Positions 16,394-52,255 of a stretch of DNA of 58,998 nucleotides are shown here, piece after piece. The stretch is from IMG/VR virus record IMGVR_UViG_3300025009_000015, positions 1 to 58,998 of that record; one strand, written 5' to 3'. The notes beneath the pieces are model-generated. The model saw nothing but the letters and a program-made list of their open reading frames with translations. It made no database searches and was not told the DNA's origin. A program made the position numbers and the translations under genes. The stretch's first letter is position 1. The number at the start of each line of letters is the position of its first letter. This DNA is from a virus.

Positions 16394-16466
16394 ACTATAG
16401 TCAACCCTACCAGAAAGATCAAGATAATAATTCACAGGTAGCAGTTTTTTTCTCGGTGCGTACACT
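16394..16466. promoter_or_regulatory. Bidirectional promoter cassette, ssb island / HTH-ParB-MTase operon
   Basis: Minus side: -10 TATAGT (16394-16399), 17 bp, -35 TTGATC (16417-16422). Centre: AATAATTCAC (16426-16435). Plus side: -10 TACACT (16461-16466); the -35 position reads GTAGCA here, unlike the TCGRAA seen elsewhere. Confidence 0.75.
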
Positions 16467-16495
16467 GGAGGCATACGGCAACGATGGAGGCAGCG

Positions 16496-16738
16496 ATGGA
16501 CAGGCGACGGATTGACGGGTTGATGAGCCGCGAGCACGAGCGAATCGACGCGGACCTGGTGCTCGACGCCCTGGTGTGGGCGGAGGGGAACGAAAGCGAG
16601 GCGTCGAGGATTCTCTGCGTGAACAGGAACACCGTGAGGCGGGTGCGCGCGTCGAAGCTCGCGGGCGTGGAGGTTCCTGCCCGGGAGGGGTACGTGTTCC
16701 GGACCCGACCGGAGGGGGGTGCGCCGTGGGTGAGCTGA
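16496..16738 (+). CDS. Small Fis-type helix-turn-helix protein
   Basis: The protein has 80 residues. The start at ATG 16496 has GGAGG 5 nt upstream; an in-frame ATG at 16484 is less well placed. ESEASRILCVNRNTVRRVRASKL reads as a Fis-like HTH recognition unit over two blocks. It is the first gene of a plus-strand operon that includes a ParB-like protein and a C5 methyltransferase, so it may regulate this operon. Confidence 0.65.
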   Translation: MDRRRIDGLMSREHERIDADLVLDALVWAEGNESEASRILCVNRNTVRRVRASKLAGVEVPAREGYVFRTRPEGGAPWVS

Positions 16739-17025
16739 AATTTTCCTACACGTTTTCGGCCTGGACGAGGACAGGGACGGAGGTCGTCGTCACGGTGGGT
16801 GCCCTGCTCGAGCGTACCGGCAGCGGTGACGTGTGGGACAACGACGGGCTCTCTGCTCGGGCGGTGACACAGGTGCGCAACGTCGTCCGTGCCTTGCCTG
16901 ACGGCAGGACTCCGGAGGACACCATTCTCGCGGTGTGGGACGCCCTGAGTTCCGCAGAGTTCGAGCTCCCCTGTGTCCGTGTGTCCCTCCAAGATAGGCA
17001 GTTGAGGGTGGAGGTGTTCAGGTGA
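16726..17025 (+). CDS. Hypothetical protein, 99 residues
   Basis: The start is GTG 16726, inside the end of the HTH gene, with a G-rich ribosome site upstream. The protein has strands at the start (ELKFSYTFSAW) and end (CVRVSLQDRQLRVEVFR). It overlaps the ParB-like gene by 4 bases. No family is recognised. Confidence 0.6.
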   Translation: MGELKFSYTFSAWTRTGTEVVVTVGALLERTGSGDVWDNDGLSARAVTQVRNVVRALPDGRTPEDTILAVWDALSSAEFELPCVRVSLQDRQLRVEVFR

Positions 17026-17516
17026 CCAGGGACCGCATCGTGGACATCGTCACAGTCAGGGCTGGGGACCTCGTCCCGAACCCGCGCAACTGGCGGACGC
17101 ACCCGGAGGCGCAGCGCAGGGGGCTCGAGCAGATACTCGACCGGGTCGGGAGTGTCGATGTCCTGAAGGCAGTACGCCTCCCCAGCGGGGAGCTGCAGCT
17201 CGTGGACGGTCACCTCCGGGCGGACATCCGGAGGGACGAGCAGGTCAGGGTCGCTGTGCTCGACCTGACACCTGAGGAGTCCGACCTGGTGCTCGCGACG
17301 TTCGACCCTGTGAGCGCGATGGCGGAGGCGGACCTGGACGTGCTCCGGGGGCTGCTGGACGACGTCAAGATGGAAGTCCCTGCGGATATGATCGAGGCGC
17401 TCGAGGCGTTGATTCGAACGGGAGATCCTGTCGAGCCCAGGAAGTTCGACACAGATGTTGAGGACGAGGTTAAGTACGTCGTCTGCCCGAACTGTGAACA
17501 TAGGTTTCCGAAATGA
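17022..17516 (+). CDS. ParB/sulfiredoxin-fold protein (ParB-like N-terminal domain)
   Basis: The protein has 164 residues. It has the ParB N-terminal signature: NPRNWRTHPEAQRRGL, then LQLVDGHLRADI. A pair of cysteines near the end (CPNCEHRF) may bind zinc. Phage ParB-like proteins of this kind often sit beside methyltransferases and may act as nucleases or CTP switches bound to DNA. Here a C5 methyltransferase follows directly, which fits a modification module. The GTG start overlaps the previous stop. Confidence 0.8.
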   Translation: MTRDRIVDIVTVRAGDLVPNPRNWRTHPEAQRRGLEQILDRVGSVDVLKAVRLPSGELQLVDGHLRADIRRDEQVRVAVLDLTPEESDLVLATFDPVSAMAEADLDVLRGLLDDVKMEVPADMIEALEALIRTGDPVEPRKFDTDVEDEVKYVVCPNCEHRFPK

Positions 17517-17862
17517 AGCCGAGTGTCCCACCAGGAAATTCTCAGATCGTGTCGATCGCACAGGCCGTGAGTGTTCCAGATGGGACTCTCGGGTATATCA
17601 CGGCGTCGAATGAGAGACACACAAGGAGCCTCTTCGATTGATGTATCAACCTGCCCCTACCATGGTGAAAACCGGTAACAGTAGGATGATGACGGGGAAC
17701 AGGGTAGAGGCGATCTCCCCGATCGAGGCCACGAGGTTCTCCTCCTTTCCAGACCAGTACAAATTCCCAGGACGAGCGTCCGAAGTGATCGAGCGCGTCG
17801 GTAACTCCGTCCCTCCCCTCCTCATGTTTCGCGTCGCTCAGCATATCAAGGAGAACCTCTTC
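17514..17862 (+). pseudogene. Remnant of a second C5 methyltransferase (recognition end and motifs IX-X)
   Basis: 17514-17641 encodes a 42-residue frame with GYITASNERHTRSLFD, typical of the segment before motif IX. After a frame change, 17641-17862 continues with YQPAPTMVKTGN, FSSFPDQYKF and VERVGNSVPPLLM, which are motifs IX-X. The same end occurs again at the true C-terminus of the next gene (SWPDQYFF, VRRVGNSVPPLLM). Motifs I-VIII of the first copy are missing. This looks like a tandem methyltransferase pair whose first copy lost its 5' part. Confidence 0.65.
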
Positions 17863-18954
17863 ATGCACCAGATCCAGAAGATGACTTCCAGCAGGAGGCC
17901 TTACGTCGAAGTGCTCGACGACCTGTGGACACGACACCTGGCCCAGCGTGAGCCAGACGCGCCGACCGTGGTTTCCCTCTTCGCGGGGGCCGGGGGCTCC
18001 TCCCTGGGGTACTCCGCTGCGGGGTTCAGGGAGCTGCTCGCCGTCGAGTGGGACAAGCACGCGTGCCAGTGCCTGAGACAGAACTTCCCGGGGTTGACTG
18101 TCTACGAGGGGGACATCTCGAAACTCACCACGGAGCGGGCGCTCGAGCTGGCAGGTATCACTCCGGGTGAGCTGGACGTGCTCGACGGCAGTCCACCATG
18201 CCAAAGTTTCAGCACGGCCGGGAAGCGGGACATGAATGATCCGAGGGGGCAACTCTTCCGGGAGTACGTCAGGATGCTTGGCATATTCAGGCCAAAAGTT
18301 TTTGTTATGGAGAATGTCTCAGGGATGGTCAAGGGCAAGATGAAGCTCATCTTCGCCGAGATCCTGCGGACGCTGCGGGGGGCAGGGTACGAGGTCGGGG
18401 CTTGGCTCCTGAACGCGATGCACTACGGCATCCCTCAGAGCAGGGAGCGCATGATCTTCGTGGGGGTCCGGTCGGACCTGGTGGGGGCCGGCCCAGGAGT
18501 ACCCCCGGGATCTAGTAGGGGGATCACGTTTCGGGAAGCAGTAGAAGGGTGTCCTGACGTAGGGGGGAAAGTACTTGGGGAATTTCTCCAGAGGATGGCA
18601 CAGAGTCAGCCGAGGGGGCTCTGGAGTAGTCATCTAGGGATCTGGCGGAGATTAAAGGGGAACGACGCCAGCTGTATGAGCACGAAATGGTGCTCCTGGG
18701 ATGACACCCCGGGAACAGTCACCAAAGAATGGATTTCCCTGTCGGGGATGATTCATCCATGGCGTGAGAGATATCTGTCTGCGGGGGAAGTGAAGAGAAT
18801 AGGGTCCTGGCCGGATCAATATTTCTTTGTGGGGAAATTTGGTGATATAGTCCGGAGGGTAGGAAACTCCGTCCCTCCCCTCCTGATGGACAGGATCTCC
18901 CAGCACGTCCGCAGGGAGATCCTCTCGAAGCTTAAACATCAGGCCCCTTTTTAG
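17641..18954 (+). CDS. DNA (cytosine-5) methyltransferase with duplicated C-terminal motifs at its N-terminus
   Basis: The full frame from 17641 encodes 437 residues; AAGGAG 9 nt before an internal ATG at 17863 suggests a 363-residue enzyme as the main product. From there the order is classical: motif I FAGAGGSSLGY, motif IV GSPPCQSFS (catalytic Cys), motif VI VMENVSG, motif VIII PQSRERM and motif X GNSVPPLL. The first 75 residues repeat motifs IX-X. It methylates cytosine in a short DNA site, probably to protect phage DNA. It ends KHQAPF. The 3' end overlaps the convergent DUF932 gene by 4 bases. Confidence 0.88.
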   Translation: MYQPAPTMVKTGNSRMMTGNRVEAISPIEATRFSSFPDQYKFPGRASEVIERVGNSVPPLLMFRVAQHIKENLFMHQIQKMTSSRRPYVEVLDDLWTRHLAQREPDAPTVVSLFAGAGGSSLGYSAAGFRELLAVEWDKHACQCLRQNFPGLTVYEGDISKLTTERALELAGITPGELDVLDGSPPCQSFSTAGKRDMNDPRGQLFREYVRMLGIFRPKVFVMENVSGMVKGKMKLIFAEILRTLRGAGYEVGAWLLNAMHYGIPQSRERMIFVGVRSDLVGAGPGVPPGSSRGITFREAVEGCPDVGGKVLGEFLQRMAQSQPRGLWSSHLGIWRRLKGNDASCMSTKWCSWDDTPGTVTKEWISLSGMIHPWRERYLSAGEVKRIGSWPDQYFFVGKFGDIVRRVGNSVPPLLMDRISQHVRREILSKLKHQAPF

Positions 18955-20628: not shown

Positions 20629-20703
20629 AGTATAATCAGTATAAAAAGGTCAGTCAAGAAAATAATTCACAAAATCGATCTTTTTTTCACGGGTGGCTAT
20701 ACT
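20629..20703. promoter_or_regulatory. Bidirectional promoter cassette, DUF932 island / TerL
   Basis: Minus side: -10 TATACT (20629-20634), 17 bp, -35 TTGACT (20652-20657). Centre: AATAATTCAC (20661-20670). Plus side: -35 TCGATC (20675-20680), 17 bp, -10 TATACT (20698-20703). The terL ATG begins 6 nt after the -10, so the mRNA is probably leaderless. Confidence 0.85.
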
Positions 20704-22992: not shown

Positions 22993-23065
22993 ACTATAAT
23001 CAACCCCACTAGAAAAATCAACAAATAATTCACAGCTCGGAAAAATAATCGAGATAGTCTACACT
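22993..23065. promoter_or_regulatory. Bidirectional promoter cassette, 22965 island / portal operon
   Basis: Minus side: -10 TATAGT (22993-22998), 17 bp, -35 TTGATT (23016-23021). Centre: AATAATTCAC (23024-23033). Plus side: -35 TCGGAA (23037-23042), 17 bp, -10 TACACT (23060-23065). The portal gene has a leader with a GAGGAG ribosome site. Confidence 0.9.
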
Positions 23066-26971: not shown

Positions 26972-27162
26972 GATTCTTCCCTCCTGTAGAGGATTTTCCA
27001 CCCCTCCACGATAATTTCCCAGGCCTCCAGCGCGAGGGCTTCTTTTCTCACTGGTGCGCTCAGGGCACACCACGGGCACTCGTAGTAGTACCAGTCCTCA
27101 TAGTGGTGATACTTCGGTCTGTGTCCGCAGTTCGGGCACGTCGATGGCGCAGATTTTTTCAC
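26968..27162 (-). CDS. Small zinc-ribbon protein resembling restriction-alleviation (Lar) proteins
   Basis: The protein has 64 residues, with a GTG start at 27162 behind GGGGGAGAAC. It has CPNCG then YYYECPWC, followed by an EALALEAW segment. Phage and prophage Lar-type proteins share CPxCG, a second CxxC and a terminal E-A-x-x-x-W block. Lar proteins modulate type I restriction, but this short match does not prove that role. Confidence 0.55.
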   Translation of the reverse strand: MKKSAPSTCPNCGHRPKYHHYEDWYYYECPWCALSAPVRKEALALEAWEIIVEGWKILYRREES

Positions 27163-27464
27163 GTTCTCCCCCTGTACACCAGGAGCAGGACGTCGACCAC
27201 CCTGTCGAGGTCTGCCCCCGTGATACCTGCCCGCGTGAGTTTGACCCTGCTCACAGCCTCGAGCAGGACGATGCGCTCCTCGTCCCGAGCTGAGAGTACC
27301 TGGGCGATCCTGTCCGCAGTCGCTAGGTCTGGGCAGATCGTCCCGTCGAGCACACGTTGTCCCCACGCGGCGCTCATCCCGACCAGGGGGCCTAGCTGTG
27401 TCACGCCGACCCTCGCGCGGGTGCGCAGGGTGTCGACGATCTGGTGGACGGTCGGGGGGCTCAT
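27159..27464 (-). CDS. Xre-type helix-turn-helix regulator
   Basis: The protein has 101 residues. It starts at ATG 27462-27464 behind TGAGG and overlaps the clamp stop codon. VTQLGPLVGMSAAWGQRVL and ICPDLATADRIAQVL read as a Cro/C1-type HTH domain, with a helical C-terminal tail. It is one of only two or three DNA-binding regulators visible in the genome, so it is a candidate for the factor that binds the AATAATTCAC boxes; that is inference. Confidence 0.65.
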   Translation of the reverse strand: MSPPTVHQIVDTLRTRARVGVTQLGPLVGMSAAWGQRVLDGTICPDLATADRIAQVLSARDEERIVLLEAVSRVKLTRAGITGADLDRVVDVLLLVYRGRT

Positions 27465-29071: not shown

Positions 29072-29121
29072 GGTTGCCTCCAGTCTGGTTAAAAATTCAG
29101 CGAAATCAAAATCCTGTCTCC

Positions 29122-29163
29122 AATATACACAGTGTATATCGTTCTCGTCAATAAAAAATTCAC
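29122..29163 (-). promoter_or_regulatory. Promoter with box for the sliding clamp island
   Basis: Minus-strand order: box (29154-29163, AAAAATTCAC on plus), -35 TTGACG (29146-29151), 18 bp, -10 TATATT (29122-29127). No TCGRAA element is visible on the plus side. The scaffold/protease gene may be read from here through a weaker promoter, or from further upstream. Confidence 0.65.
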
Positions 29164-38962: not shown

Positions 38963-38965
38963 CAG

Positions 38966-39576: not shown

Positions 39577-39649
39577 ACTATAATCAGGCAAGAGAAAAAA
39601 TCAACAAAATAATTCACAGCTCGACGTTGTTTCCACTGTGAGCTATTCT
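39577..39649. promoter_or_regulatory. Bidirectional promoter cassette, 39541 island / tail chaperone
   Basis: Minus side: -10 TATAGT (39577-39582), 16 bp, -35 TTGATT (39599-39604). Centre: AATAATTCAC (39608-39617). Plus side: -35 TCGACG (39621-39626), 17 bp, -10 TATTCT (39644-39649). Confidence 0.85.
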
Positions 39650-41137: not shown

Positions 41138-41212
41138 ATACTATGAGCAATTTTCAGTGAAAATCAACATAATAATTCACCTATCGAAAAATCCTCAGCG
41201 ATCGCGTACACT
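41138..41212. promoter_or_regulatory. Bidirectional promoter cassette, 41108 island / tape measure
   Basis: Minus side: -35 TTGATT (41162-41167) and a -10 CATAGT at 41140-41145 (16-bp spacer). Centre: AATAATTCAC (41171-41180). Plus side: -35 TCGAAA (41184-41189), 17 bp, -10 TACACT (41207-41212). The tape measure gene has an AGGAGG ribosome site. Confidence 0.85.
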
Positions 41213-41232: not shown

Positions 41233-42792
41233 ATGGCCGAGCGCGTCGTCATCCGTGAGCTCATCGTCAAGCTCCTGTTCGAGGGGAACGAGAGCGGCGT
41301 CACGAAGTTTAACCAGGCGTTGCAAGGGTTTTCGACTCTTGCACGGTACGCCGAGCAGGCATTGCGCAAGCTCTCTGACGCTGTGATAGGGACGACCCTC
41401 CAGATCGCGGACCAGGCCGACGCTCTCGGGGAGTCTGCGGCGCAGGTGGGTGTCACGGCTCAGGTGTACGACGCCCTGACCGCTGCCGTCTTAAAAAATG
41501 GGGGGTCGGTCGGTGAGCTGGACGGGGGGCTCCGGATCCTGTCCGGGCACCTCCGGGAGTTCCGGGCGTCCGGGACGGGGGCGCTCAAAGACCTGCTCGG
41601 GCCGGACGCGAAAAAGAGCTTGGAAGGCATCACGTCCGTGGACGGGGCGCTCGGGGTGGTCGCCGACGCGCTCGCCAGGATCAAGAACCCGGCCGAACAG
41701 GTGGCCGCCGCGAACGACCTGCTCGGCAGGAGCGGGAACAAGCTCTTGCCGACACTTCAGGGGGGCGCCAAGGGCATCCGAGATATGCTCGAGTCCATGG
41801 TGGCGATGGGCACGTTCTCCCCTGAGCTGCTCCAGGCAGGGTCCGACCTGAACGACCAGCTCGCGGAGGGGGCACTCCTCTGGCGCGGCGTCAAGATCGC
41901 GGTCGGAGAGGAGACCGTACCCGCGCTGCATGACCTAGTGACCGAGCTGAACCTCGCGTTCCGTTCGGCGAAGGAGACGTTCGGGCCGGAGATACGCGAC
42001 GCGGCACGGATGCTCGCGTCAGGTTTTCGCGCGGCGAAGGATGCCTTGAAGTCACTCCGGACGGAGCTACTCGAGTCGGCTCGAGGCATGGCCGCGCTGA
42101 AGACGGTAGCAATTTTTCTTGGCTTCGCGCTCTCGGGGTTGGCGCTGGCGCAGCTCCCCGGTGCCATCCGAGCGCTGTGGGCGATGCGTTTCGCGCTCGA
42201 GCGAGTCATCCAGTCGACGATCGTCTGGATCGTGGGGACTGCTCTAGCCGTCGCTCCGTACGTGATCGCGGCGGCGATGCTCACAGTGATCGCTCTGATA
42301 GTAGAGGACCTGGTGGGGTTCGTCACAGGGGCGAACTCAGCGTTCGGGCTCATGGTCGACAAGATGCACGAGATGGGTCCGATCTGGGACGCCATCGCAA
42401 ACTCCCTCGAGTACGTGTTTGGGGGAGGGATCGGCAACGACCTCTACGACATGATCGAGGCCGTCTCCGGGGCGGTCGACCGACTCCGGGAGAAGCTCGG
42501 CCCGGTCGTGGACATGGTCGGGAAAGCAGCGAACCTGGCACTGATGATGGTCCCCGGAGGGGCGGGCATCGCTGCGGGTGCGAGAGCTCTGGGGTCCATG
42601 GTCCCGTCCGCGTCGTCCGTCGGCGCGCGGACCAGCAACGTGTCTGTGGGGGGCAGCTCGGTGAACGTCGCGGTGAACGGGGCAGGGAACCCCCGGGCAG
42701 TCGGCGCGGAGGTCGCCAGGCAGGCGGACGAGGTGATGGCCAGACACGCGACACAGGTCGCGCGAAACCTGGGTTCTGCGATGTCGTATTAG
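41233..42792 (+). CDS. Tail tape measure protein (short)
   Basis: The protein has 519 residues. It is helical and Ala-rich (ALRKLSDAVIGTTLQIADQ), with hydrophobic segments near residues 290-360 (VAIFLGFALSGLALAQL, VIAAAMLTVIALIVEDLVG), as in tape measures. By the usual rule of about 0.15 nm per residue the tail would be near 75-80 nm. It ends before intergenic element B. Confidence 0.75.
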   Translation: MAERVVIRELIVKLLFEGNESGVTKFNQALQGFSTLARYAEQALRKLSDAVIGTTLQIADQADALGESAAQVGVTAQVYDALTAAVLKNGGSVGELDGGLRILSGHLREFRASGTGALKDLLGPDAKKSLEGITSVDGALGVVADALARIKNPAEQVAAANDLLGRSGNKLLPTLQGGAKGIRDMLESMVAMGTFSPELLQAGSDLNDQLAEGALLWRGVKIAVGEETVPALHDLVTELNLAFRSAKETFGPEIRDAARMLASGFRAAKDALKSLRTELLESARGMAALKTVAIFLGFALSGLALAQLPGAIRALWAMRFALERVIQSTIVWIVGTALAVAPYVIAAAMLTVIALIVEDLVGFVTGANSAFGLMVDKMHEMGPIWDAIANSLEYVFGGGIGNDLYDMIEAVSGAVDRLREKLGPVVDMVGKAANLALMMVPGGAGIAAGARALGSMVPSASSVGARTSNVSVGGSSVNVAVNGAGNPRAVGAEVARQADEVMARHATQVARNLGSAMSY

Positions 42793-42823
42793 TTGCTCGT
42801 ACTGTAAGCAATTGACCGGATTG

Positions 42824-43010
42824 AATAATTCACTGGAAAAGATCGACAAACTTCCTGATTGACCTAAGTCGATCAAGATCTGGACCCCCTCAAAATCGCT
42901 GTGGGCTCCAAGGCGAGCAAAACGAAGGATGGTCAATAGCAAAGCTCATCTTTTCAAAAAATCGGTTCTAAGGCCTCTGGTAGCTCGCTGGCGACATCGA
43001 ATTTTGGAGG
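42824..43010 (+). repeat. Three-copy intergenic element, copy B
   Basis: It starts with AATAATTCAC (42824-42833) and is very close to copy C in the first 50 and last 80 bases. TGATTGAC-CTAA-GTCGATCA forms an 8-bp hairpin. GACC pairs with GGTC and CCT with AGG in the next helix; TCGC pairs with GCGA inside it. A TTGCT/AGCAA inverted repeat lies just before (42793-42811). It fills the gap between the tape measure and the Dit-like gene. Confidence 0.85.
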
Positions 43011-43070
43011 ATCGGTCATGATTTCTCGAATCACTCGTAGCCTGTATTTCCTCCTCTGGAGGGTAAGAAT

Positions 43071-43598
43071 ATGCCTCAGAAATCTCTCCTGACCTGGGCC
43101 GGGTACACGTTCGACGTCGTGCAGTCGGAGACTGTCTCCGACGCGGCGCAGCTCGCGCAGCACCCGCTCGAAGACGGCTCTCTGGTGTCCGACCACCTGA
43201 TCCAGACACCGACGCCAGTCTCTGCGGAAGTGCTGGTCACGGACATCCCGGGGGACGGGACCGCATACCAGCTCGGGAGGTCGAACGACGTTTACCTCTC
43301 CCTCCTGCAGGAGCTGGGGAGAGGGACGGAGTCGGACCTGTCTGACGGGGTCCGGGTCTACCCGGACATGATCCTGACCGCGGTGTCCCGGACCAGGGGA
43401 GCGCCGGAGGGAGTCGCCAGGCTCAGCCTCCGGTGGGACCCCGTCCGCCGCGCGTCCGGGCTCGAGGTCGCCGTCCCCCTGCCGCACACCTCGACGGTCG
43501 GAGCGGCGAAGCAGAGCGTCGGGAAAAAAGCCCCAGAGGCTGTCCCTGCGGCGACGCAGGCGAAGGCGAGCACGATCCTTTTCGACCTGATCAATTGA
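43071..43598 (+). CDS. Dit-like baseplate protein
   Basis: The protein has 175 residues. TFDVVQSETVSDAAQLAQHP, EDGSLVSDHLIQTPTPVSAE and DGVRVYPDMILTAVSRTR follow Dit-like baseplate proteins (the V-x-E, HP-E-G, SDH blocks). It has a GGAGG ribosome site. It begins the hub cluster after the tape measure. Confidence 0.7.
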   Translation: MPQKSLLTWAGYTFDVVQSETVSDAAQLAQHPLEDGSLVSDHLIQTPTPVSAEVLVTDIPGDGTAYQLGRSNDVYLSLLQELGRGTESDLSDGVRVYPDMILTAVSRTRGAPEGVARLSLRWDPVRRASGLEVAVPLPHTSTVGAAKQSVGKKAPEAVPAATQAKASTILFDLIN

Positions 43599-43608
43599 GG
43601 AGTATTCT

Positions 43609-43986
43609 ATGCCCGTTTCCATCCCCCTGAGATCTGACCTGGCCCGGTGGGAGCAGCAGGTAGAGCTCGGCGACACGTACGACGCGGACGGGGTGACATT
43701 CACCGATGCGAGGCTCTATACCCTGATTTTCGACTGGAACGGGCGCGCGTCGTGCTGGACGCTGGGGATACAGGACGCGGACGGGGCGGACCTGCTTCGG
43801 GGGAAGGGGCTCCGGCTCGGGTCGCTCAGGCTCCGGCGACACGGTCGGGAGTCAGGACTCCCACCGGGAGACTTCCTGCTCGTCGACCTGTCCGGGATGC
43901 ACACCGAGGTGACACTGACCAGTCTGGGGGTCGGTCATAGCTTATTGTATTACTCGAGCGGGGAGCTGTCGGAGGCTGGGCTGTGA
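43609..43986 (+). CDS. Baseplate plug protein
   Basis: The protein has 125 residues. It begins MPVSIPLRSDLARWEQQVEL and has LYTLIFDWNGRASCWTLGIQ followed by a GxRLGSLRLRR turn, a pattern of baseplate plug proteins of small sheathed phages. It lies between Dit-like and hub genes. Confidence 0.65.
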   Translation: MPVSIPLRSDLARWEQQVELGDTYDADGVTFTDARLYTLIFDWNGRASCWTLGIQDADGADLLRGKGLRLGSLRLRRHGRESGLPPGDFLLVDLSGMHTEVTLTSLGVGHSLLYYSSGELSEAGL

Positions 43987-43987
43987 C

Positions 43988-44818
43988 ATGACTGAGCTAT
44001 TCGACCGACGATGCACCCTTCAGATATCGACGAAGACCAGCTCGAGGCAGTGGACCTCCGGGCAGAAAAACGAGCTCGACCTGACGTTCTCGGCCGAGAA
44101 GACGGCGGGAAGCGAGCCGAACCGGTGCGATATCTCCGTCTGGAACCTCTCGGAGGACTCCAGGCGCCTGGTGTCTGACGAGGGCGCGACGGTCAGGCTC
44201 TCGGCCGGGTACGTCGGGACGGAGGCGCTGGTATTCGTCGGCGACGTGGACGACGTCCAAACATCCCGCGACGGTGCGGACGTGCTCTCCCGGATCTCCT
44301 GCTCGGACGGGGGGCTGGCGATCCGGAGCACCGTCGTGAACATCTCGACGAAAAAGGACACTCCCGTCTCGGACCTGGTGGACCAGCTCGTGGGACAGCT
44401 CGGCCTGCCGAAGGGTCCGATCGCGGTCGTCTCCGGGGCGCTGAAACGAGGTTTGGCCGTGCTCGGCCCGGTCCAGAAGGCCCTCGACGAGCTGTGCAGC
44501 TCGAACGGTCTCCGGTGGTCGGTGCAGGACGGGGCCGTACAGGTACACCCTGTCACGGGCACGCCAGACGCGGTGGTCGTGCTTTCCCAGGACACCGGGC
44601 TCGTGGGGATACCAGAGCGCCTGGTCCAGCGTGACCAGAAGGGGGGGGTCGAACGCCGGGGCGTCAAGTGCAGGTCGCTCCTCCAGCCCGGGCTGAACCC
44701 CGGCCGGAGAATCCGGGTAAAATCAGAGTGGGTGTCTGGGGATTTCGTCGTCGAGCGGGTGGGGCACTCGGGGAGCACGGTCGGGGGGGAGTGGTACACG
44801 GACGTCGAGGCCTACTGA
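43988..44818 (+). CDS. Baseplate hub protein (gpD/gp27-like)
   Basis: The protein has 276 residues. ELDLTFSAEKTAGSEPNRCD with ISVWNLSEDSRRLV and GATVRLSAGYVG, then VFVGDVDDVQTSRDG, is the start of phage hub proteins. The end KVRIRVKSEWVSGDF-like segment (RIRVKSEWVSGDFVVERV) is the conserved C-terminal part. It forms the hub that holds the spike. Confidence 0.8.
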   Translation: MTELFDRRCTLQISTKTSSRQWTSGQKNELDLTFSAEKTAGSEPNRCDISVWNLSEDSRRLVSDEGATVRLSAGYVGTEALVFVGDVDDVQTSRDGADVLSRISCSDGGLAIRSTVVNISTKKDTPVSDLVDQLVGQLGLPKGPIAVVSGALKRGLAVLGPVQKALDELCSSNGLRWSVQDGAVQVHPVTGTPDAVVVLSQDTGLVGIPERLVQRDQKGGVERRGVKCRSLLQPGLNPGRRIRVKSEWVSGDFVVERVGHSGSTVGGEWYTDVEAY

Positions 44819-45247
44819 TCAGTTGTCGAACCAGAACACCATGCGGACATCCTCTACCGTAGATGGATAATCCTCAGGATACCGCTTGACGTCGTACCCA
44901 TTCCCGAAAAGATATCCAAAAACACTGAACACATAACAGAGATCTGCTTCAGGATCCTTTATACGCGCTTCTCGTTCGTACCAATCCTGCACGTCCGAGA
45001 GTTCTTTTCCTGTGATCCAGGACAGATGATGCCAGTCTTCAACCCCCCTGTTATAGTCCATGTTGGTCAGTAATGACATATTGTCAGGTATCCCTCGTAA
45101 AGGGTATTGCTGATCACCTGGTTTGTCTGTTCTCACGCCAGCGAGTCGTGCGAACAGTGAGTAGTTGCGGGGAATGTTTAACGCCATCCAGTGATGCCAT
45201 TCCCCAGAAACTTTTACTTCGATATGCGCATGAATGTCACAACCCAT
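44819..45247 (-). CDS. MGCDIH-type conserved phage protein, function unknown
   Basis: I start at ATG 45245-45247 behind GAGGAG, giving 142 residues that begin MGCDIHAHIEVKVSGEW. Proteins starting MGCDIH-x-E are widespread in phages. They share a later R-NYSLFARLAGVR block, present here (PRNYSLFARLAGVRTD), and a P-RG-P segment (YPLRGIPDN). Their activity is not known. It directly abuts the hub gene tail to tail. Confidence 0.75.
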   Translation of the reverse strand: MGCDIHAHIEVKVSGEWHHWMALNIPRNYSLFARLAGVRTDKPGDQQYPLRGIPDNMSLLTNMDYNRGVEDWHHLSWITGKELSDVQDWYEREARIKDPEADLCYVFSVFGYLFGNGYDVKRYPEDYPSTVEDVRMVFWFDN

Positions 45248-45277
45248 TTTCGTTCTCCTCAATTTCTGTGAGCGCTA

Positions 45278-45805
45278 CTAATTTCCGGGGATACACGCAT
45301 CACAATCGCAGTCCGGATGGGAAGCATTTTGTTGTCGACGCTCGAGCTCAGCCTCGAGCTGCTCCGTCGTGAACCCTGCCAGTGCAGCGATCATCGGATC
45401 GATTGCCGGAGTCAGAGACGCCAGCGCCAGAGTCTGAACCCACGGAACGCAATCGAGTCGGGCCTGGACCTGATCCAGGAAGCTCGGGGAGCAGTGGTCG
45501 AAGCTCATAGAGGTTCCAAGATTCCCGTCACCCTGGAGTGAACTCTCGACCTGAAAACAATCGTACGTCCTCATCTGACTCTTCGCGCTTCCTGCAGGGG
45601 CGCAACAGACCACCACAGAACCGGCCGGGACCTCCTGCTCACCCTCGTTCAGGAACTCGCCCTGAAGGGCGTACCCGTTTTTCTGCGACCGGTCGATCCC
45701 GGTCACGATCTTCAGCCAGCCGACCCGACGCCCCGACCCTGTCGGCTTCGTGAAAGTCCTTCGAATCATCGCCACACCGTTTCGCTCTACAATTTTCAGG
45801 TCCAT
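45278..45805 (-). CDS. Hypothetical protein with Cys-rich end, 175 residues
   Basis: The chain starts MDLKIVERNGVAMIRRTF and has a beta-rich first half (GRRVGWLKIVTGIDRSQ, GSVVVCCAPAGS). The C-terminus reads HPDCDCDACIPGN, three clustered cysteines that may bind metal. It is the middle gene of a three-gene island. Confidence 0.6.
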   Translation of the reverse strand: MDLKIVERNGVAMIRRTFTKPTGSGRRVGWLKIVTGIDRSQKNGYALQGEFLNEGEQEVPAGSVVVCCAPAGSAKSQMRTYDCFQVESSLQGDGNLGTSMSFDHCSPSFLDQVQARLDCVPWVQTLALASLTPAIDPMIAALAGFTTEQLEAELERRQQNASHPDCDCDACIPGN

Positions 45806-45834
45806 GATTTTCTCCGAATTCGTTGTGTTAGATT

Positions 45835-46203
45835 TCAGTCCTTATCCAAATCGATTGCGATTTCAAGTTCGTGTAACCACTCAGCTTTTGCGGAGGCCTT
45901 GAAAGACTCAATTACGTTGATCAACGCAGAGCTGGAGCGCGATTCCCATGGGCGATCGTCGATAAGGTCTCTTCTGAGACGGATCACGTTTTTGCGCGTT
46001 GCAGAGGCCAACCCTTCGTCGGCGATATCGCGACGAAGACACATGGCCAAAGAACCCCTCTGCTCGTCCTTGACGGCTTTCTCGGATTCCCACCCAAGAA
46101 TTATGGCAACGCCACCGTTTTGCACGGCTGTCACGAAGGCTTCGCGGGTTACCTTGGCTTGCGAAATCGTGTGAAGGATCAAAATCTCAACGTTGCTGGC
46201 CAT
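45835..46203 (-). CDS. Hypothetical protein, 122 residues
   Basis: The chain starts MASNVEILILHTISQAKVT and is helical with many charged residues (RKNVIRLRRDLIDDR), ending LEIAIDLDKD. It is the first gene behind the minus-strand promoter at 46253-46281. No family is recognised. Confidence 0.6.
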   Translation of the reverse strand: MASNVEILILHTISQAKVTREAFVTAVQNGGVAIILGWESEKAVKDEQRGSLAMCLRRDIADEGLASATRKNVIRLRRDLIDDRPWESRSSSALINVIESFKASAKAEWLHELEIAIDLDKD

Positions 46204-46252
46204 TTCGTTTCTCCAAGTTCGTGTTTCAATGTCTCAATCTCAGTATGTATCT

Positions 46253-46346
46253 ACTATAAGCTACCCCTAGATCAGAATCAAGAAAATAATTCACACATCA
46301 CAAAAATAATTCACAGCTCGGAAAATCTCGGCAGGTAGTCTACAGT
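46253..46346. promoter_or_regulatory. Bidirectional promoter cassette with two boxes, 46203 island / spike gene
   Basis: Minus side: -10 TATAGT (46253-46258), 17 bp, -35 TTGATT (46276-46281), box 1 (46285-46294). Plus side: box 2 AATAATTCAC (46305-46314), -35 TCGGAA (46318-46323), 17 bp, -10 TACAGT (46341-46346). Each promoter has its own box. The spike ATG is 6 nt after the -10 (probably leaderless). Confidence 0.9.
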
Positions 46347-46352
46347 ACAGCC

Positions 46353-47054
46353 ATGGACGAGCAGGGGACACGGACTCTCACGAGCGCAGTAGCCACCGCG
46401 ATCGACGCGGCGCTGCTCGAGGTGCGCACGGCGACGCCGGCGAGGATCGAGTCCTACTCGGCATCCGACCAGCGGGCCGTCGTCCTCCCCCTCCTGAAGC
46501 GGCGGACGAAAGTCGGGGCCGTGCTCGTCCCGAACCCGATCGGGAACGTCCCGGTTCTGTTCCCCCGGGCCGGGGGATACGCGATCACCTTCCCGGTCGC
46601 CTCCGGGGACACGGGGCTCCTGATCTGCTCGGACCGGTCCCTCGACCTCTGGCTCGAGTCCGGGGGGCAGGTGGATCCGCAGAGCGGTCGCCATCACGAG
46701 ATGGGCGACGCCGTGTTCCTCCCCGGACTCCACGCCTGGGGGGACGCGATACCAGGGGCCAGTACGTCAGACATGGTCCTGATGCGGGAGGACGGCTCAG
46801 CCCTGGTCCAGATCGGGTCGGGGCTCGTGGAGATAGGCGCCCACCCTGCTGCGTCGTGGATCGCCCGTGCAGACTTCACGGACGCGCGGATTACCTCGCT
46901 ACAGGCAAAGCTCGACTCATTGATCGCGAAGTACGACCTACACACGCACCTAGGGGTGCTACCTGGTCCGGCAGTCACAGCTCCCCCGCTCCCCACAGAG
47001 ATTGTGCTCGGGCCTCTGGCGACCGTCGCAGCCACGATTGGGAAGGTGACATGA
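46353..47054 (+). CDS. Baseplate spike protein (Gp138 / gpV-like)
   Basis: The protein has 233 residues. The N-terminal OB fold carries RIESYSASDQRAVVLPLLKRR, VPVLFPRAGGYAITFPVASG, then a DTGLLICSDRSLDLWLESGG block, the signature of Gp138-type spikes. The C-terminal part contains HTH-LG repeats typical of the beta-helix tip (YDLHTHLG). It pierces the outer envelope. Confidence 0.8.
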   Translation: MDEQGTRTLTSAVATAIDAALLEVRTATPARIESYSASDQRAVVLPLLKRRTKVGAVLVPNPIGNVPVLFPRAGGYAITFPVASGDTGLLICSDRSLDLWLESGGQVDPQSGRHHEMGDAVFLPGLHAWGDAIPGASTSDMVLMREDGSALVQIGSGLVEIGAHPAASWIARADFTDARITSLQAKLDSLIAKYDLHTHLGVLPGPAVTAPPLPTEIVLGPLATVAATIGKVT

Positions 47055-48271
47055 GCGTAACCAGCGACGCGGCGGCGACCGCGATCACGAACGCGATCAA
47101 TGCGATGGCCCCGGCCGACGTCCAGAGCCTGCTGAAAGTTATGAAGGCGTGGATGGCTCAAGAGGAGCCGTACTGGGCGGCAGGCGGGGGGTCTCAGCCG
47201 ATCATCATCCGGCCGGACACGATTACACCGGGAACCCGTCACGAAATTGTGGACGGGTGGCTGGGGCTTCGCTATCGCACAGGTTTTTACGAGTCGCGAA
47301 ACATCCTGCTGGCGGACGGTGCCGAGTATGGTTGGAACGTCATCAACAGTGCCAACGTCGCAAGCGCCAACGAGAACACCAGTAATCCCGGGCAGGTGAC
47401 GATCAATCCTACGGGAGGCGCCGCGAAGGACTGGTATCCTGCGACATACACGGCACCGAAGCGCACAAAGCTGTTTCCCTGCAACCAGAAGACTCAGTTT
47501 ATCACAGCTCGACTCGCGACGAACTGCGCGGCGGTGGGTGATGTTTCCGGGATCATGATCCATGGTATTGCAGACACTGGTAAATTCATTCGTTCATTTT
47601 TTCAGCGTTCGGGTGCCAACGTCCTTTGTGGGACGCAAAACAACGCAGGCGTGACGGGGCCGATGCTGACTGTGACTCCTGCGACGGCGGCTAATGGCGT
47701 CTGGTTTCGAATCATGATCGACTCCCGGGGGTACGTGTGGGGGTGGCAGAACGCGACGTTCAGTGCAACCCCACCTATCGGTGGATGGACGCTCGGAGTT
47801 TCGAATCAGGGCACAGGCGGGCTACCAGATATCACAGGCATGTCCGCAGGCTACTACTGCGGCAACAGCGCCGGGGGCACAAACCAACTCCGGGTGCTAT
47901 ACTACGATGACCGAGGCATGGGCACGCCAATTGACGGAGAGACTTACCCGACGTGGGGCGCGGGCTATGATATCGCGTCCACGGCTATTCAGATTCTCGA
48001 CGTTGACGATGCAGGCGCATCGTCGAACACGGAAATCAAAGCACTGTTTACCGGGCTGGCGGCCAAGGCGGGAAGCACAGCAACTCTCCAAGTAAGCGGA
48101 AAGCGTTCCGGTGGCGCCGGTTCGGCGTTCGTCACTTGGTCGACTCCGGCAGCATGGGCGGGCGTAGACGGCGCAGGTGATTGGCTCCGTTTGGGGCTCC
48201 GGTGGGTGTCAGACGGGACGCAGCCGGGCAACGTGTTTCTCGGGTCGGGCGTGACTCTGCGGACATCATAG
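47051..48271 (+). CDS. Putative tail-tip / receptor-binding or lectin-like virion protein
   Basis: The protein has 406 residues and starts at ATG 47051, overlapping the spike stop. After a short helical start (MSVTSDAAATAITNAINAM) it is a beta-rich, Gly/Thr/Asn-rich chain with regions like GVWFRIMIDSRGYVWGWQN and LRVLYYDDRGMGTPIDG. It looks like a carbohydrate-binding jelly roll. Its place between spike and gp25 is unusual for a fibre. Its codon use is less GC-rich and it holds no CTCGAG, so it may be a recent arrival. Confidence 0.55.
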   Translation: MSVTSDAAATAITNAINAMAPADVQSLLKVMKAWMAQEEPYWAAGGGSQPIIIRPDTITPGTRHEIVDGWLGLRYRTGFYESRNILLADGAEYGWNVINSANVASANENTSNPGQVTINPTGGAAKDWYPATYTAPKRTKLFPCNQKTQFITARLATNCAAVGDVSGIMIHGIADTGKFIRSFFQRSGANVLCGTQNNAGVTGPMLTVTPATAANGVWFRIMIDSRGYVWGWQNATFSATPPIGGWTLGVSNQGTGGLPDITGMSAGYYCGNSAGGTNQLRVLYYDDRGMGTPIDGETYPTWGAGYDIASTAIQILDVDDAGASSNTEIKALFTGLAAKAGSTATLQVSGKRSGGAGSAFVTWSTPAAWAGVDGAGDWLRLGLRWVSDGTQPGNVFLGSGVTLRTS

Positions 48272-48280
48272 GAGATCACA

Positions 48281-48646
48281 GTGGCGCTACAGCTCACATC
48301 GACAGGGGACCTCCAGCGGACGCTCGGGACGTTCGTCAGACTGGACGAGGTCTCGGACAGGGACGAGTGCATCGGGCAGCGGATATCTATTCGTCTCAGG
48401 AGGTGGCTCGGGGAGTGGGACTACGACACCAGGCTGGGTATGCCTTGGAGCACACTGCTCACGAAGGGCACAACGGAGGGGCAGCTCAGGGCCGCGATCG
48501 TGCGGGAGGTGACCAGGGTGCCTGGGGTGCGCGCGGTCGCGTCCCTGACGACGTCGGTCGTCAACCGGGCTGTGACTGTGACGGGGAGGGTGTCTGTGGT
48601 CGGGAGCTCGGAGCTGGTTACGTTCGGGGCGCAGGTGGAGATCTGA
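48281..48646 (+). CDS. Baseplate wedge protein, gp25-like
   Basis: The protein has 121 residues with a GTG start. DECIGQRISIRLRRWLGEWDYD and LGMPWSTLLTKGT follow gp25/W proteins (the R-LGEW-D-GMPW block). The end is GSSELVTFGAQVEI. It belongs to the sheath-initiation baseplate ring. Confidence 0.85.
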   Translation: MALQLTSTGDLQRTLGTFVRLDEVSDRDECIGQRISIRLRRWLGEWDYDTRLGMPWSTLLTKGTTEGQLRAAIVREVTRVPGVRAVASLTTSVVNRAVTVTGRVSVVGSSELVTFGAQVEI

Positions 48647-48649
48647 CAC

Positions 48650-50056
48650 CTATTTATGGAGCACCACGTAAACGGTGTTGATCCGCGTCCCGGACGACGC
48701 GAACGACTCCATGGGGAGATCCCGGAACGGAGACCCGTAGCAGTCGCTGTGCTTCTTCGCCCACGCACGGAAAGTGTCGTGCGCCTTGCTCTCCCCGAAC
48801 TCGACGGTGGCGGGGAGGATGGCGACCAGCTTCCCCCCGGGGCGCAGGAACTCGAACCCCAGCAGAACGTGTTGCATGTAGAGAGTCCCGTGGAACGGGG
48901 GGTTCATGACGACGTGGGAGTACGCGGGGACGGGAATCATTCGCAGGAAGTTAGCGTGTAGGACGGTCAGTCGCTTGTGCGCGCGAGACAGCTCTTGCAG
49001 CACCAGGACCCTCCCCGCGTCTACCTCCACGGCGTCGACTCCCGCCCCCGTCTTGAGCAGGTGGCGGACGATGTTCCCCGTACCTGCTGACGGTTCGAGT
49101 ACCCGACTCCCCTCGTTGATGTACAGGTCAGACAACAACTTTTCGACCACTGCTTCGGGCGTCGGGTAGAACCCCAGGTCTTTGCAGAGTACCGTAGAGC
49201 GCTCTCGGATGTCCTTGTCTGTCACGTCCGCCGGGACGCCGTCCGGAAGCACCTCCCCGTAATAGTCTGCGAGCACACCGTTCGCTTTCCCGACCAGGTC
49301 GTCTCGGGTGAACCAGAGATGCGCGTTCCCGTTCATGTACGTGCGGATCCGGAAATACTCCGACTCTGTGCAGGACTGCCGGGGGTTGAGGTTCCGTCCG
49401 CGCCCCTCGTCGATGGCGTTGATCAGCCCGCGGGGGTCGGGCTTGTTCCCGTCCAGGACGGCGAACACCCGCTCGACGTCGCAGATCGTGTCCCTCATGC
49501 TGTAGTGGCCCCAGTTCCCCCGCTCGTTGAAGACGTTGGTCAAGATGATTCTCGCCCCGATCTTGAAGGCGTCGTGGCTCCGGAACCTCCTGTCCAAGTC
49601 GATGAAAGCACGGGCCAGCCCTCGCTGAAAGATCAGGTAGGCGTCCTTCCGCAGGCCATCGAACGTCGCGTAGATCGTGTCCTCCGACACCTCCGGTACG
49701 TCGTTGCAGAGCTGATCGTACAGCTCATCTTTGGCGGTCCTGTCCATCATGTGCTCCATGCCGGTCAGGCACAGGAGGTTCATCCACACCCTGGCGTCGA
49801 CCTGCTGGCGGTACGCCTCGAAGCTCTTCTCTGGGTCGATCCCTTCGAAGAGCCTCTTGTACGCCTCCGACCTGCTGCGGTCGGACAGCGTGAACGTCGC
49901 CGCCCCGTGAGCCTGCTGCGCGTGCCGGTAGGACTGCTCGGCCAAGGCTTGGCCCTGTACCATGGCTGCCACGGCATCGCGCATCATGGTCATGGCTGCG
50001 TCCCGGTGAGCGCACACCTCGGTCACGGTCGTTCGGGGGATAAGGGCTGTCTCCAT
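48650..50056 (-). CDS. DUF4942 protein with N6-adenine methyltransferase domain
   Basis: The protein has 468 residues. The N-terminal 280 residues are of the DUF4942 type (FDGLRKDAYLIFQRGLARAF, then RIILTNVFNERGNWGHYSM). The C-terminal domain has GFYPTPEAVVEKLL, motif I VLEPSAGTGNI and motif IV VVMNPPFHG (NPPF, adenine-specific). It would modify adenine in phage DNA. It is a single-gene island with its promoter at 50092-50120 and has no CTCGAG site in its sequence as far as I could see. Confidence 0.85.
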   Translation of the reverse strand: METALIPRTTVTEVCAHRDAAMTMMRDAVAAMVQGQALAEQSYRHAQQAHGAATFTLSDRSRSEAYKRLFEGIDPEKSFEAYRQQVDARVWMNLLCLTGMEHMMDRTAKDELYDQLCNDVPEVSEDTIYATFDGLRKDAYLIFQRGLARAFIDLDRRFRSHDAFKIGARIILTNVFNERGNWGHYSMRDTICDVERVFAVLDGNKPDPRGLINAIDEGRGRNLNPRQSCTESEYFRIRTYMNGNAHLWFTRDDLVGKANGVLADYYGEVLPDGVPADVTDKDIRERSTVLCKDLGFYPTPEAVVEKLLSDLYINEGSRVLEPSAGTGNIVRHLLKTGAGVDAVEVDAGRVLVLQELSRAHKRLTVLHANFLRMIPVPAYSHVVMNPPFHGTLYMQHVLLGFEFLRPGGKLVAILPATVEFGESKAHDTFRAWAKKHSDCYGSPFRDLPMESFASSGTRINTVYVVLHK

Positions 50057-50091
50057 ATATTGCCTCCAAGGGTTAAGAAAAACCTGTATCT

Positions 50092-50165
50092 ACTATAATC
50101 AACCCGCACGGAAAGATCAACATAATAATTCACAGCTCGGAAAATCTCAGCAGGTAGACTACACT
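50092..50165. promoter_or_regulatory. Bidirectional promoter cassette, DUF4942 MTase / 50219 operon
   Basis: Minus side: -10 TATAGT (50092-50097), 17 bp, -35 TTGATC (50115-50120). Centre: AATAATTCAC (50124-50133). Plus side: -35 TCGGAA (50137-50142), 17 bp, -10 TACACT (50160-50165). Confidence 0.9.
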
Positions 50166-50218
50166 GCGACCAGGAGCGAAATCACTCTAGATTCCGAACA
50201 GATTTAGGGGGACTACTC

Positions 50219-50695
50219 ATGTCAGTGCTCCGTATCGTCGGTATCGGCCAATTAGGACACCTAATCCCGGGTACGATCGCGAATACATCCGAGGGGGGTC
50301 TCGTGATCCTGGTCCACAAACTACCAGGCAGCATCACACGACGGGGGCTGGTCTGCCGGGCGTCCACCAACATACCTCTGTCGTGGGAGATATCTCAGGC
50401 CTCAGAGAGATCGATGCTTGGTGTGATTTATGAGGACGACGAGAATCCAGACCTGACGTGGATAGTGATTTCCGGTATCGCTCAGGTACTCCTGCAGGAT
50501 GGGACGGCTGCAGCGCCAGGAAATTGGGTGAAAACATCCGACTCACAGCCTGGTCACGCAAACGCTACGACAGTCACCCCTCCAGACGGGACGATGCCAA
50601 AAATCTCTGAGCGTTTGCGGGAGCTCGGGTACTGCCTCGAGAGTAAAACCGCAGGGATAGATGTGTTGTGCTCCTGTCTCGTGAGCGCACATTAG
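50219..50695 (+). CDS. Hypothetical virion-region protein, 158 residues
   Basis: The chain starts MSVLRIVGIGQLGHLIPGTI and is beta-rich, with GVIYEDDENPDLTWIVISGI and WVKTSDSQPGHANATTV, like small surface domains that carry a G-A-x-V pattern. AGGGGG precedes the ATG. It lies ahead of baseplate J. It may decorate the baseplate. Confidence 0.55.
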   Translation: MSVLRIVGIGQLGHLIPGTIANTSEGGLVILVHKLPGSITRRGLVCRASTNIPLSWEISQASERSMLGVIYEDDENPDLTWIVISGIAQVLLQDGTAAAPGNWVKTSDSQPGHANATTVTPPDGTMPKISERLRELGYCLESKTAGIDVLCSCLVSAH

Positions 50696-50707
50696 AGAGG
50701 ATTTTCT

Positions 50708-51910
50708 GTGGGTACACTGACGACGACAGGGTATGCGAAAGCGTCCGCAGCGGACTGGTTGACGGCGCTCCGGGCAGACTGGATCTCCGAGTTCGGGGTG
50801 GGGACGGATGTCTCAGACGACTCCCCGGACGGGGTGCTCCTCCGGATTTTCGCTCAGTACCTGGCCGAGCAGGACGAGGCGATCGAGGCCGTCTACCAAG
50901 CCATCGACCCCGACTCCGCCGCGGGGGTCGCGCTCGAGAATGTCTGCTCGCTACTAGGGCTCTCCCGGAACGCGGCGACGTATTCCACTATCTCCTCCCC
51001 GGGCGTCACGCTCTCAGGCGTCGCCGGGACGAACGTCGCAGGGGGGACGCGGTTCTCGGTCAGCGCGACAGGGGTCCAGTTCAGCCTCGACGCCCTAGCA
51101 GTCATCGGTGGAGGCGGGACCGTGACCTGCGGGGTTACTGCTGTCTTGACCGGCCCAGGCGCCGCGGGGGTCGGAGCGCTCGACACGATCGACACTCCTG
51201 TCGCCGGCCTGACCGGGGTGACGAACACGGTCGCCGCGGTGCTCGGGACGGACCAGGAGTCTGACGAGGGGTTCCGCTCGAGGCGGGAGGCCTCCCTGTC
51301 CGCGACGGGGCGCGGGACGGTCGATTCCCTCTACGCTCGCCTGGCGGACCTTGACGGGGTGACGTCGGTAAAAGTGATCGAGAACTCGACAGACGGGGTG
51401 GTCGCGGGGCAGGACGCCCACTCCGTCCAATGCGTCGTCTACGGCGGGACGGCTCAAGATATCGTGGACGAGATCTGGTTGTCAAAGCCCGCGGGGATCG
51501 CGACGTACGGGACCAGCTCGGGCACAGCGGTCGACGCGGCGGGGGACAACCACACGGTTGAGTACACCGTCCCCGCGCTCGTCACCGTCCACATCCGGAC
51601 CACCATCACGACCGACTCGACGTACCCGATCGACGGAGACGCCCAGGTGAAGCAGCAGATCCTGCTGGCTCTGGCCCAAGGGCTGACCGAGCTCGAGGTG
51701 CTTCAGGGGACTGTGACGACGGGGCAGGGGTTGGTCGGGGAGGATGTGATCAGCGGGAAGATCGTCAAGGCGATCTACACTGTGCAGGGGGTCCTGACGC
51801 ACACCGGGCCGCTCGTCGACACGGTAGACCCCCCGGTCGCGACCGGGAACCTCTCGATGAGTGACGCCCAAGTCGCGAGTTACGCGATCGCGAACATGGA
51901 CGTACTCTAA
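50708..51910 (+). CDS. Baseplate J / gp47-like protein
   Basis: The protein has 400 residues. DDSPDGVLLRIFAQYLAEQDE, ALENVCSLLGLSRNAATYS, then GTDQESDEGFRSRREASLSA and GTVDSLYARLADLDGVTSV mark the J family. It ends MSDAQVASYAIANMDVL. It is a major wedge component. Confidence 0.88.
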   Translation: MGTLTTTGYAKASAADWLTALRADWISEFGVGTDVSDDSPDGVLLRIFAQYLAEQDEAIEAVYQAIDPDSAAGVALENVCSLLGLSRNAATYSTISSPGVTLSGVAGTNVAGGTRFSVSATGVQFSLDALAVIGGGGTVTCGVTAVLTGPGAAGVGALDTIDTPVAGLTGVTNTVAAVLGTDQESDEGFRSRREASLSATGRGTVDSLYARLADLDGVTSVKVIENSTDGVVAGQDAHSVQCVVYGGTAQDIVDEIWLSKPAGIATYGTSSGTAVDAAGDNHTVEYTVPALVTVHIRTTITTDSTYPIDGDAQVKQQILLALAQGLTELEVLQGTVTTGQGLVGEDVISGKIVKAIYTVQGVLTHTGPLVDTVDPPVATGNLSMSDAQVASYAIANMDVL

Positions 51911-52110
51911 ATCCATTCGACCCTGAAGCCGCCAGTGGCCAAAGGAAATGCGTACCCGAGCACCTGAGCGCCAACAGGCAGCTCCGACTCGTGCTCGACG
52001 CTACCACTACCTGGTCGAGAAAAGTCCACATGCTGCGACCAGAGAATCGAACGACGAGTCGTGAAAGGTTCGTAACGCTCTTCGTCTTTAAGGTTCATTT
52101 TTTCAATCAT
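51907..52110 (-). CDS. Hypothetical protein, 67 residues
   Basis: I start at ATG 52108-52110 because GGAG lies 10 nt upstream in TTGGAGAGAACGACC. The chain is MIEKMNLKDEERYEPFTTRR then strands SILWSQHVDFSRPG and ends GFRVEWI. It is a one-gene minus-strand island whose end overlaps baseplate J by 4 bases. Function unknown. Confidence 0.55.
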   Translation of the reverse strand: MIEKMNLKDEERYEPFTTRRSILWSQHVDFSRPGSGSVEHESELPVGAQVLGYAFPLATGGFRVEWI

Positions 52111-52161
52111 GGTCGTTCTCTCCAAGTTCGTGTTTCTCAATCTCAATCTCAATCTGTATCT

Positions 52162-52255
52162 ACTATAAGCTATCCACGATTCAGAGTCAAGAAAATAATT
52201 CACAAAACCTAAAAATAATTCACAGCTCGAAAAAATCTCCCGGGTAGTCTACAGT
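52162..52255. promoter_or_regulatory. Bidirectional promoter cassette with two boxes, 52110 island / gpI-like gene
   Basis: Minus side: -10 TATAGT (52162-52167), 17 bp, -35 TTGACT (52185-52190), box 1 (52194-52203). Plus side: box 2 (52214-52223), -35 TCGAAA (52227-52232), 17 bp, -10 TACAGT (52250-52255). The ATG at 52262 is 6 nt after the -10. Confidence 0.9.

Follow-up and report, generated by a model that had tools for sequence, protein, structure and literature searches.

A short asymmetric box shared by early-type and late-type promoters in a contractile-tailed phage genome, and a possible switch acting through it

The virus record IMGVR_UViG_3300025009_000015, analysed here over its full 58,998 bp (the window), comes from a tailed phage that has not been described previously. 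In this genome a 10-bp sequence, AATAATTCAC (the box), is a component of two promoter classes: early-type promoters on the minus strand and late-type promoters on the plus strand, which stand back-to-back at eight loci. Because five minus promoters without a late-type partner (3763, 8354, 9339, 29151 and 58859) retain the box, and because each promoter has its own copy at two of the eight loci, it forms part of either kind of promoter; the idea of a mere divider between the two sides, which the original prediction had implied by placing a shared central box in each cassette, is thereby ruled out. One and the same box is found at all early-type promoters and at eight of late type, with early genes scattered inside the late cluster. 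We tentatively favour, at somewhat less than even confidence, a box-dependent early-off/late-on switch like that of phi29 p4 at the eight loci; the factor, the sign of its action and all timing are what we infer. In well-studied phage early/late switches, phi29 foremost, there are one or a few control loci, and early and late genes form separate blocks. In the present genome one factor could control most phage genes, which would give a compact model for timing a mosaic genome and for inserting reverse-strand genes without silencing a late operon. The model yields exact start-site predictions.

The genome contains the box 15 times without mismatch (plus strand 14, minus strand 1), and allowing up to one mismatch gives 28 matches against 0.59 expected. 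Intergenic DNA holds 14 exact copies, compared with a mean of 0.013 (maximum 1) in dinucleotide shuffles; the box is the most repeated intergenic 10-mer, and the top 10-mer of any shuffle reached at most three copies. The full bidirectional pattern was found eight times and never in 300 shuffles, so that the predicted cassettes are real and do not arise equally well from shuffled intergenic sequence. The box is asymmetric and at most a partial palindrome, with no inverted-repeat recognition site, and a palindromic operator was rejected on this ground. Most copies share one genome orientation.

All eight cassettes (Table 1) have a common layout. Reading from the minus side, a -10 element (TATAGT, TATACT or CATAGT) is followed by a spacer of 16-17 bp, a TTGAYN -35 element, a gap of 2-3 bp (3-4 bp in the original prediction) and the box; then come 3-4 bp, the plus -35 region, about 17 bp and the plus -10 element (TACACT four times, TACAGT twice, TATACT and TATTCT once each). 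The opposed -35 regions lie about 16 bp apart, or 36 bp at the two-box loci. At these two loci, for which one box per promoter had correctly been noted, the boxes (46285/46305 and 52194/52214) are exactly 20 bp apart, that is, two helical turns; each lies 3 bp from its own promoter, and AGCTCGRAA occurs solely next to the late promoter. A plus -35 region near TCGRAA had been reported for seven of the eight loci: the motif is exact at five (boxes 23024, 41171, 46305, 50124 and 52214) and partial at two (TCGATC at 20661, TCGACG at 39608), and it is absent at 16426. The eight divergent switches all held up, although the genome has ten divergent gene junctions rather than eight; all ten carry a box, and at eight of them two promoters truly stand back-to-back. 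The third base of the box is T in 10 of 10 boxes of these eight pairs and A in four of the five partnerless minus sites (p=0.004), so the late side constrains the box separately. At the tenth junction, a perfect 17-bp palindrome, ATATACACAGTGTATAT (29120-29145), overlaps the minus -10 of the clamp operon and is possibly a separate operator.

Table 1. Positions of cassettes, promoters, repeats and genes in the window. Gene functions are from PHROGs/Pfam scans, except for the winged-helix protein, which comes from structure models.
Feature	Position	Strand	Details
Cassette 1	16394..16462		minus TTGATC-N17-TATAGT; box 16426-16435; plus -10 TACACT; without TCGRAA
Cassette 2	20629..20703		minus TTGACT-N17-TATACT; box 20661-20670; plus -10 TATACT-N6-ATG of terminase large subunit (predicted leaderless)
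Cassette 3	22993..23065		minus TTGATT-N17-TATAGT; box 23024-23033; plus TCGGAA-N17-TACACT; portal operon
Cassette 4	39577..39649		minus TTGATT-N16-TATAGT; box 39608-39617; plus TCGACG-N17-TATTCT; tail chaperone
Cassette 5	41140..41212		minus TTGATT-N16-CATAGT; box 41171-41180; plus TCGAAA-N17-TACACT; tape measure
Cassette 6	46253..46346		boxes 46285, 46305; minus TTGATT-N17-TATAGT; plus TCGGAA-N17-TACAGT-N6-ATG (predicted leaderless)
Cassette 7	50092..50165		minus promoter of methyltransferase gene; box 50124-50133; plus TCGGAA-N17-TACACT; baseplate
Cassette 8	52162..52255		boxes 52194, 52214; plus TCGAAA-N17-TACAGT-N6-ATG (predicted leaderless)
Ninth junction	9305..9352	-	TTGACT-N17-TATGTT-N6-ATG (predicted leaderless); box 9343; primase gene; without late-type plus promoter
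Tenth junction	29120..29163	-	sliding-clamp operon promoter; box variant AAAAATTCAC (29154); without late-type plus promoter; head-protease operon opposite
Minus-only promoter	3730..3776	-	box variant GTGAATTTTT (3763); DNA polymerase side
Minus-only promoter	8320..8368	-	TTGATC-N17-TATGGT; box variant GTGAATTTTT (8354); gene 6333-8297
Minus-only promoter	58825..58872	-	box variant GTGAATTTTT (58859); starts operon 58791 to 55095
Box-free promoter	12496..12534	+	TTGACA-N18-CATACT-N6-ATG; predicted leaderless gene 12532-13089; control for promoter class
~200-bp repeat, copy 1	13751..13962	+	box 13787; 3' of plus gene; inverted box at 13721
~200-bp repeat, copy 2	42788..42999	+	box 42824
~200-bp repeat, copy 3	52885..53096	+	box 52921
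Xre-type HTH protein	27159..27464	-	HTH_31, E 6.8e-7; candidate box-binding factor
Putative winged-helix protein	57796..58017	-	73 aa; predicted in one of five models; candidate box-binding factor
Terminase large subunit	20710	+	
Portal	23089	+	
Head morphogenesis	24684	+	
Head protease	29172	+	
Major capsid	31768	+	
Sheath	36923	+	
Tape measure	41233	+	
Baseplate genes	43988-52885	+	
Family-A DNA polymerase	1-2715	-	
Helicase-like	3999	-	
SSB-like	16074	-	
Sliding clamp	27461	-	
Methyltransferases	17662; 48650	+; -	

We scanned both strands with promoter matrices from which the box was excluded. As the matrices derive from the sites themselves, leave-one-out scoring is the fair test. The minus matrix, with nine training sites plus 8354, 58859, 29151 and 3763, gives 13 promoters, all on the minus strand, and the box-bearing sites rank top on that strand. 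In each of them GTGAATTWTT precedes the -35 element by 2-4 bp, and all 13 pass leave-one-out scoring against flank shuffles (p<=0.004). These promoters (TTGAYN-N16-18-TATAGT-like) resemble those of host sigma70, as had been suggested, with most near consensus, and nearly every minus-strand gene group is headed by one of them. Directly past most minus -10 elements, AGATACAG is conserved (discriminator or initial transcript), for example leftward from 50092.

The plus matrix describes eight promoters, all on the plus strand, and in each of them AATAATTCAC precedes the -35 region by 3-4 bp. A box-blind plus scan again placed the eight box-bearing sites on top, with lower matches weaker and scattered, and leave-one-out scoring was significant at all eight (p<=0.012; at cassette 1, p<0.001 for the minus and 0.008 for the plus side); at boxes without a late promoter the plus-side score was not significant. 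The plus side had been described as unlike sigma70, and for the -35 region, which is poor, this stands; the -10 elements, however, conform to the sigma70-like pattern TANNNT, three of them at exactly the position that a leaderless start requires. Set side by side, TTGAYN/TATAGT (minus) and TCGRAA/TACAST (plus) oppose early promoters with good -35 and -10 elements to late promoters lacking a good -35. The minus promoters seem suited to immediate use by host RNA polymerase, and the plus promoters look activator-dependent. An alternative sigma factor or a phage RNA polymerase for the plus side was rejected given the TANNNT fit and the leaderless starts, and neither kind of protein was found among the proteins scanned with PHROGs/Pfam. 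An ECF-type reading of the late element (GGAA...GTC) was also rejected, since its spacing of 12 does not match the consensus. GCGACC or ACAGCC follows several late -10 elements, for example rightward from 50165.

At five promoters (9339 on the minus strand; 12496, 20661, 46305 and 52214 on the plus strand) the -10 element is followed by exactly 6 nt and ATG (p=4e-8 against local background). None of the five genes, which start at 9304 (minus), 12532, 20710, 46353 and 52262, has a Shine-Dalgarno site, and they are predicted to give leaderless mRNAs. This arrangement independently supports the -10 assignments. Among bacteria, the TANNNT leaderless signature is commonest in Actinobacteria and Deinococcus-Thermus (PMC3160421); together with a CHAP endolysin it hints at an actinobacterial host.

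The box occupies positions of about -48 to -39 in both promoter classes, with about 26 bp (25-27) to the -10 element in either direction, which agrees with the proposal that an activator or the C-terminal domain of the RNA polymerase alpha subunit (alpha-CTD) could touch both promoters from it. Relative to transcription, its orientation is opposite for minus and plus promoters. The position suits the main rival to a switch, which we think unlikely while taking it seriously: the box would be a UP-like or host-activator element boosting both promoters, with no phage switch protein on it, and timing would come from the late-only AGCTCGRAA or from polymerase exclusion, or would be weak. Like UP elements and alpha-CTD sites, which fall within about -59 to -38, the box is AT-rich and directly upstream of -35; it ends at about -39 of both promoters, where alpha-CTD binds. 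The 2-4 bp gap to -35 holds throughout the minus class (13 of 13), also where a minus-only promoter has GTGAATTTTT, which is just as AT-rich, and early promoters have to function ahead of any phage protein. UP elements accept wide sequence variation, whereas here an identical 10-mer including GTG/CAC stands at 14 intergenic places, some of them off promoters.

Those copies off promoters include three in a repeat of about 200 bp that is non-coding and lies downstream of plus genes, with no recognisable promoter at its boxes. In the repeat the box forms a fully conserved 13-nt block, while the upstream flanks have diverged; retention of the block away from promoters favours a protein site over plain AT-richness. 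Each repeat also holds an inverted repeat resembling TGATTGAC..GTCGATCA, and an Rfam search with the repeat gave no match.

The box also resembles the stoperators of cluster A mycobacteriophages in being short, asymmetric and present in many copies, both at promoters and elsewhere between genes: L5-type repressors bind more than 20 asymmetric 13-mers, which lie in promoters and in small gaps between genes, with orientation tied to transcription (PMC9283540). That the box is likewise the operator of a phage repressor, for temperate or superinfection control, seems improbable to us. The asymmetric site, its mostly single genome orientation, its presence in intergenic repeats and an Xre-type helix-turn-helix (HTH) gene (generic HTH_31) would all suit such a repressor. 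However, the boxes keep one fixed distance upstream of the -35 of two promoter classes and are neither over starts nor scattered in operons; their orientation follows the genome, one orientation serving both directions of transcription; and none of the proteins scanned with PHROGs or Pfam matched an integrase.

Descent could likewise produce recurrence. Cassettes 6 and 8 with their leaders (46210-46360 and 52119-52269) are 82% identical over 151 nt, which suggests copying or duplication. It is nonetheless very improbable that the recurrence mainly reflects recent duplication of one cassette hitch-hiking with reverse-strand genes, the box being kept by descent and not by use: spacers have widely diverged while the box, -35 and -10 persist, and minus-only sites with strongly diverged promoters still hold the box.

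The assignment of early and late classes draws on gene content. Gene calls came from a simple codon-usage model built for this analysis, and with the PHROGs/Pfam scans they identify a contractile-tailed phage. By annotation, structural genes are 16 of 16 on the plus strand, and nucleic-acid genes are eight on the minus and four on the plus strand (Fisher p=1.6e-4), supporting the proposed early-minus/late-plus polarity. The primase gene at junction 9343 and the VRR nuclease gene at 12532, both on the plus strand, are non-structural and have no late-type promoters, which fits the split; an exception to it is the plus promoter at 16426, which has genes for a methyltransferase and a ParB-like protein behind it. 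Structural gene order is otherwise standard, broken up by minus genes. At four convergent junctions (18951-18954, 38795-38798, 51907-51910 and 48646-48650) neighbouring genes share 4 bp or are separated by 3 bp, which leaves no room for terminators, and at convergent junctions in 38000-56000 intrinsic terminators showed no excess over shuffles. Antisense interference is likely at such tight early/late junctions.

The closest parallel is phi29, in which early and structural genes occupy opposite strands, with divergent early A2b/A2c and late A3 promoters; the early promoters use host RNA polymerase, and the late promoter, with its poor -35, needs p4 bound in between, where p4 also represses the early ones (PMC3100819). 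The present genome likewise has divergent early-type and late-type promoters, at eight loci, with a box between them that may control both, and the late-type promoters have a poor -35 where the early-type ones have good -35 and -10 elements. Unlike here, phi29 has one locus with four p4 sites, inverted-repeat recognition and p6 in addition; our phage has eight loci and a single short asymmetric box at about -43 of both promoters, and no p4-like or p6-like protein was identified. Given the asymmetry we do not file it as a p4 system, though it may work likewise. Cluster O mycobacteriophages (Corndog) also have divergent SigA-like promoters, leaderless mRNAs and genome-wide repeats (PMC4351075). 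Shared with Corndog are divergent sigma70-like promoters in AT-rich gaps, a +1 that is predicted to fall on the start codon, a separately promoted reverse gene within the structural operon, and repeats throughout the genome; the Corndog repeats, however, are palindromic and mostly off promoters, and no box shared by early and late promoters is described there (PMC4351075).

Under the p4-like switch that we favour, host RNA polymerase would fire the minus promoters at entry, expressing genes for replication and modification as well as small early genes. A sequence-specific protein, probably an early product of the phage itself, would then occupy the box at about -43, recruit polymerase to the plus promoters and displace the minus-side polymerase, as polymerases on both sides would collide. 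With back-to-back -35 regions about 16 bp apart, simultaneous occupation should be prevented. Cassette duplication may have let reverse-strand early genes enter the late structural cluster: a bidirectional cassette upstream of each minus gene would express that gene and restart late transcription after it. That a single phage protein reads the asymmetric box both ways, turning 13 early promoters off and late transcription on at eight pairs, so that nearly identical toggles are spread over the whole genome, and that the cassette was copied with every arrival of a reverse-strand early gene in the late operon, is taken as a whole doubtful.

Several observations weigh against the switch. The 2-4 bp spacing between box and -35 is as tight at minus-only promoters, as expected if the box aids early promoters, and the opposite box orientation for the two promoter types is hard to square with a class II activator that requires one orientation. 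The gene for the CHAP endolysin lies among the minus-strand genes. No late-type promoter was recognised for the head/major-capsid operon (29172-38798), nor a late-type box promoter for primase (9509) and g11-12; the suggestion that transcription switches at every site at once was therefore too strong. Among the phage's own products, the Xre-type, winged-helix and NinH/Fis-like proteins are DNA-binding-like and candidates only, none being tied to the box. The winged helix at 57796 has a predicted local distance difference test score (pLDDT) of 86.5 in the best of five models and 44-56 in the others, with Protein Data Bank matches at E>=0.002; the 16484 protein has a weak NinH/Fis match and an unusable model (pLDDT 43.5); and the 13089 protein (HTH_23), a further candidate regulator, may be a terminase small subunit.

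Viral contigs were searched with the portal, sheath, terminase and capsid proteins, with a sheath alignment of two rows and with three DNA patterns, and no independent relative with the cassette was found. Other contigs with several cassettes were the same virus (100% identity); remaining viral-contig matches were single chance matches in unrelated contigs, one of which has a box between two sigma70-like promoters, a single instance that we treat as chance. The sole related virus found, IMGVR_UViG_3300009285_010713, is a 2.1-kb contig, 69-74% identical at two tail genes, in a region without the cassette. A capsid scan of genome contigs was empty, a loose promoter pattern gave scattered, chance-like matches in them, a sheath search of 397 genomes of the phylum of Rothia amarae gave weak partial matches only, and isolated phage records held distant structural relatives only (sheath and capsid below 30% identity). 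No relative lacking an insertion was found, and cassette copying at each insertion is something we infer.

The first 127 bases of the record recur exactly at its end (1-127 = 58872-58998), so that it probably represents a complete genome of about 58,871 bp, either circular or terminally redundant. A tRNA-Asn lies at 2821-2893 on the minus strand, and the minus-strand nuclease gene 6333-8297 contains a 12/24-bp tandem repeat at 6610-6784. An AT-rich gap of 580 bp (11950-12530), full of GATCTATCGAT-like repeats, resembles a replication origin.

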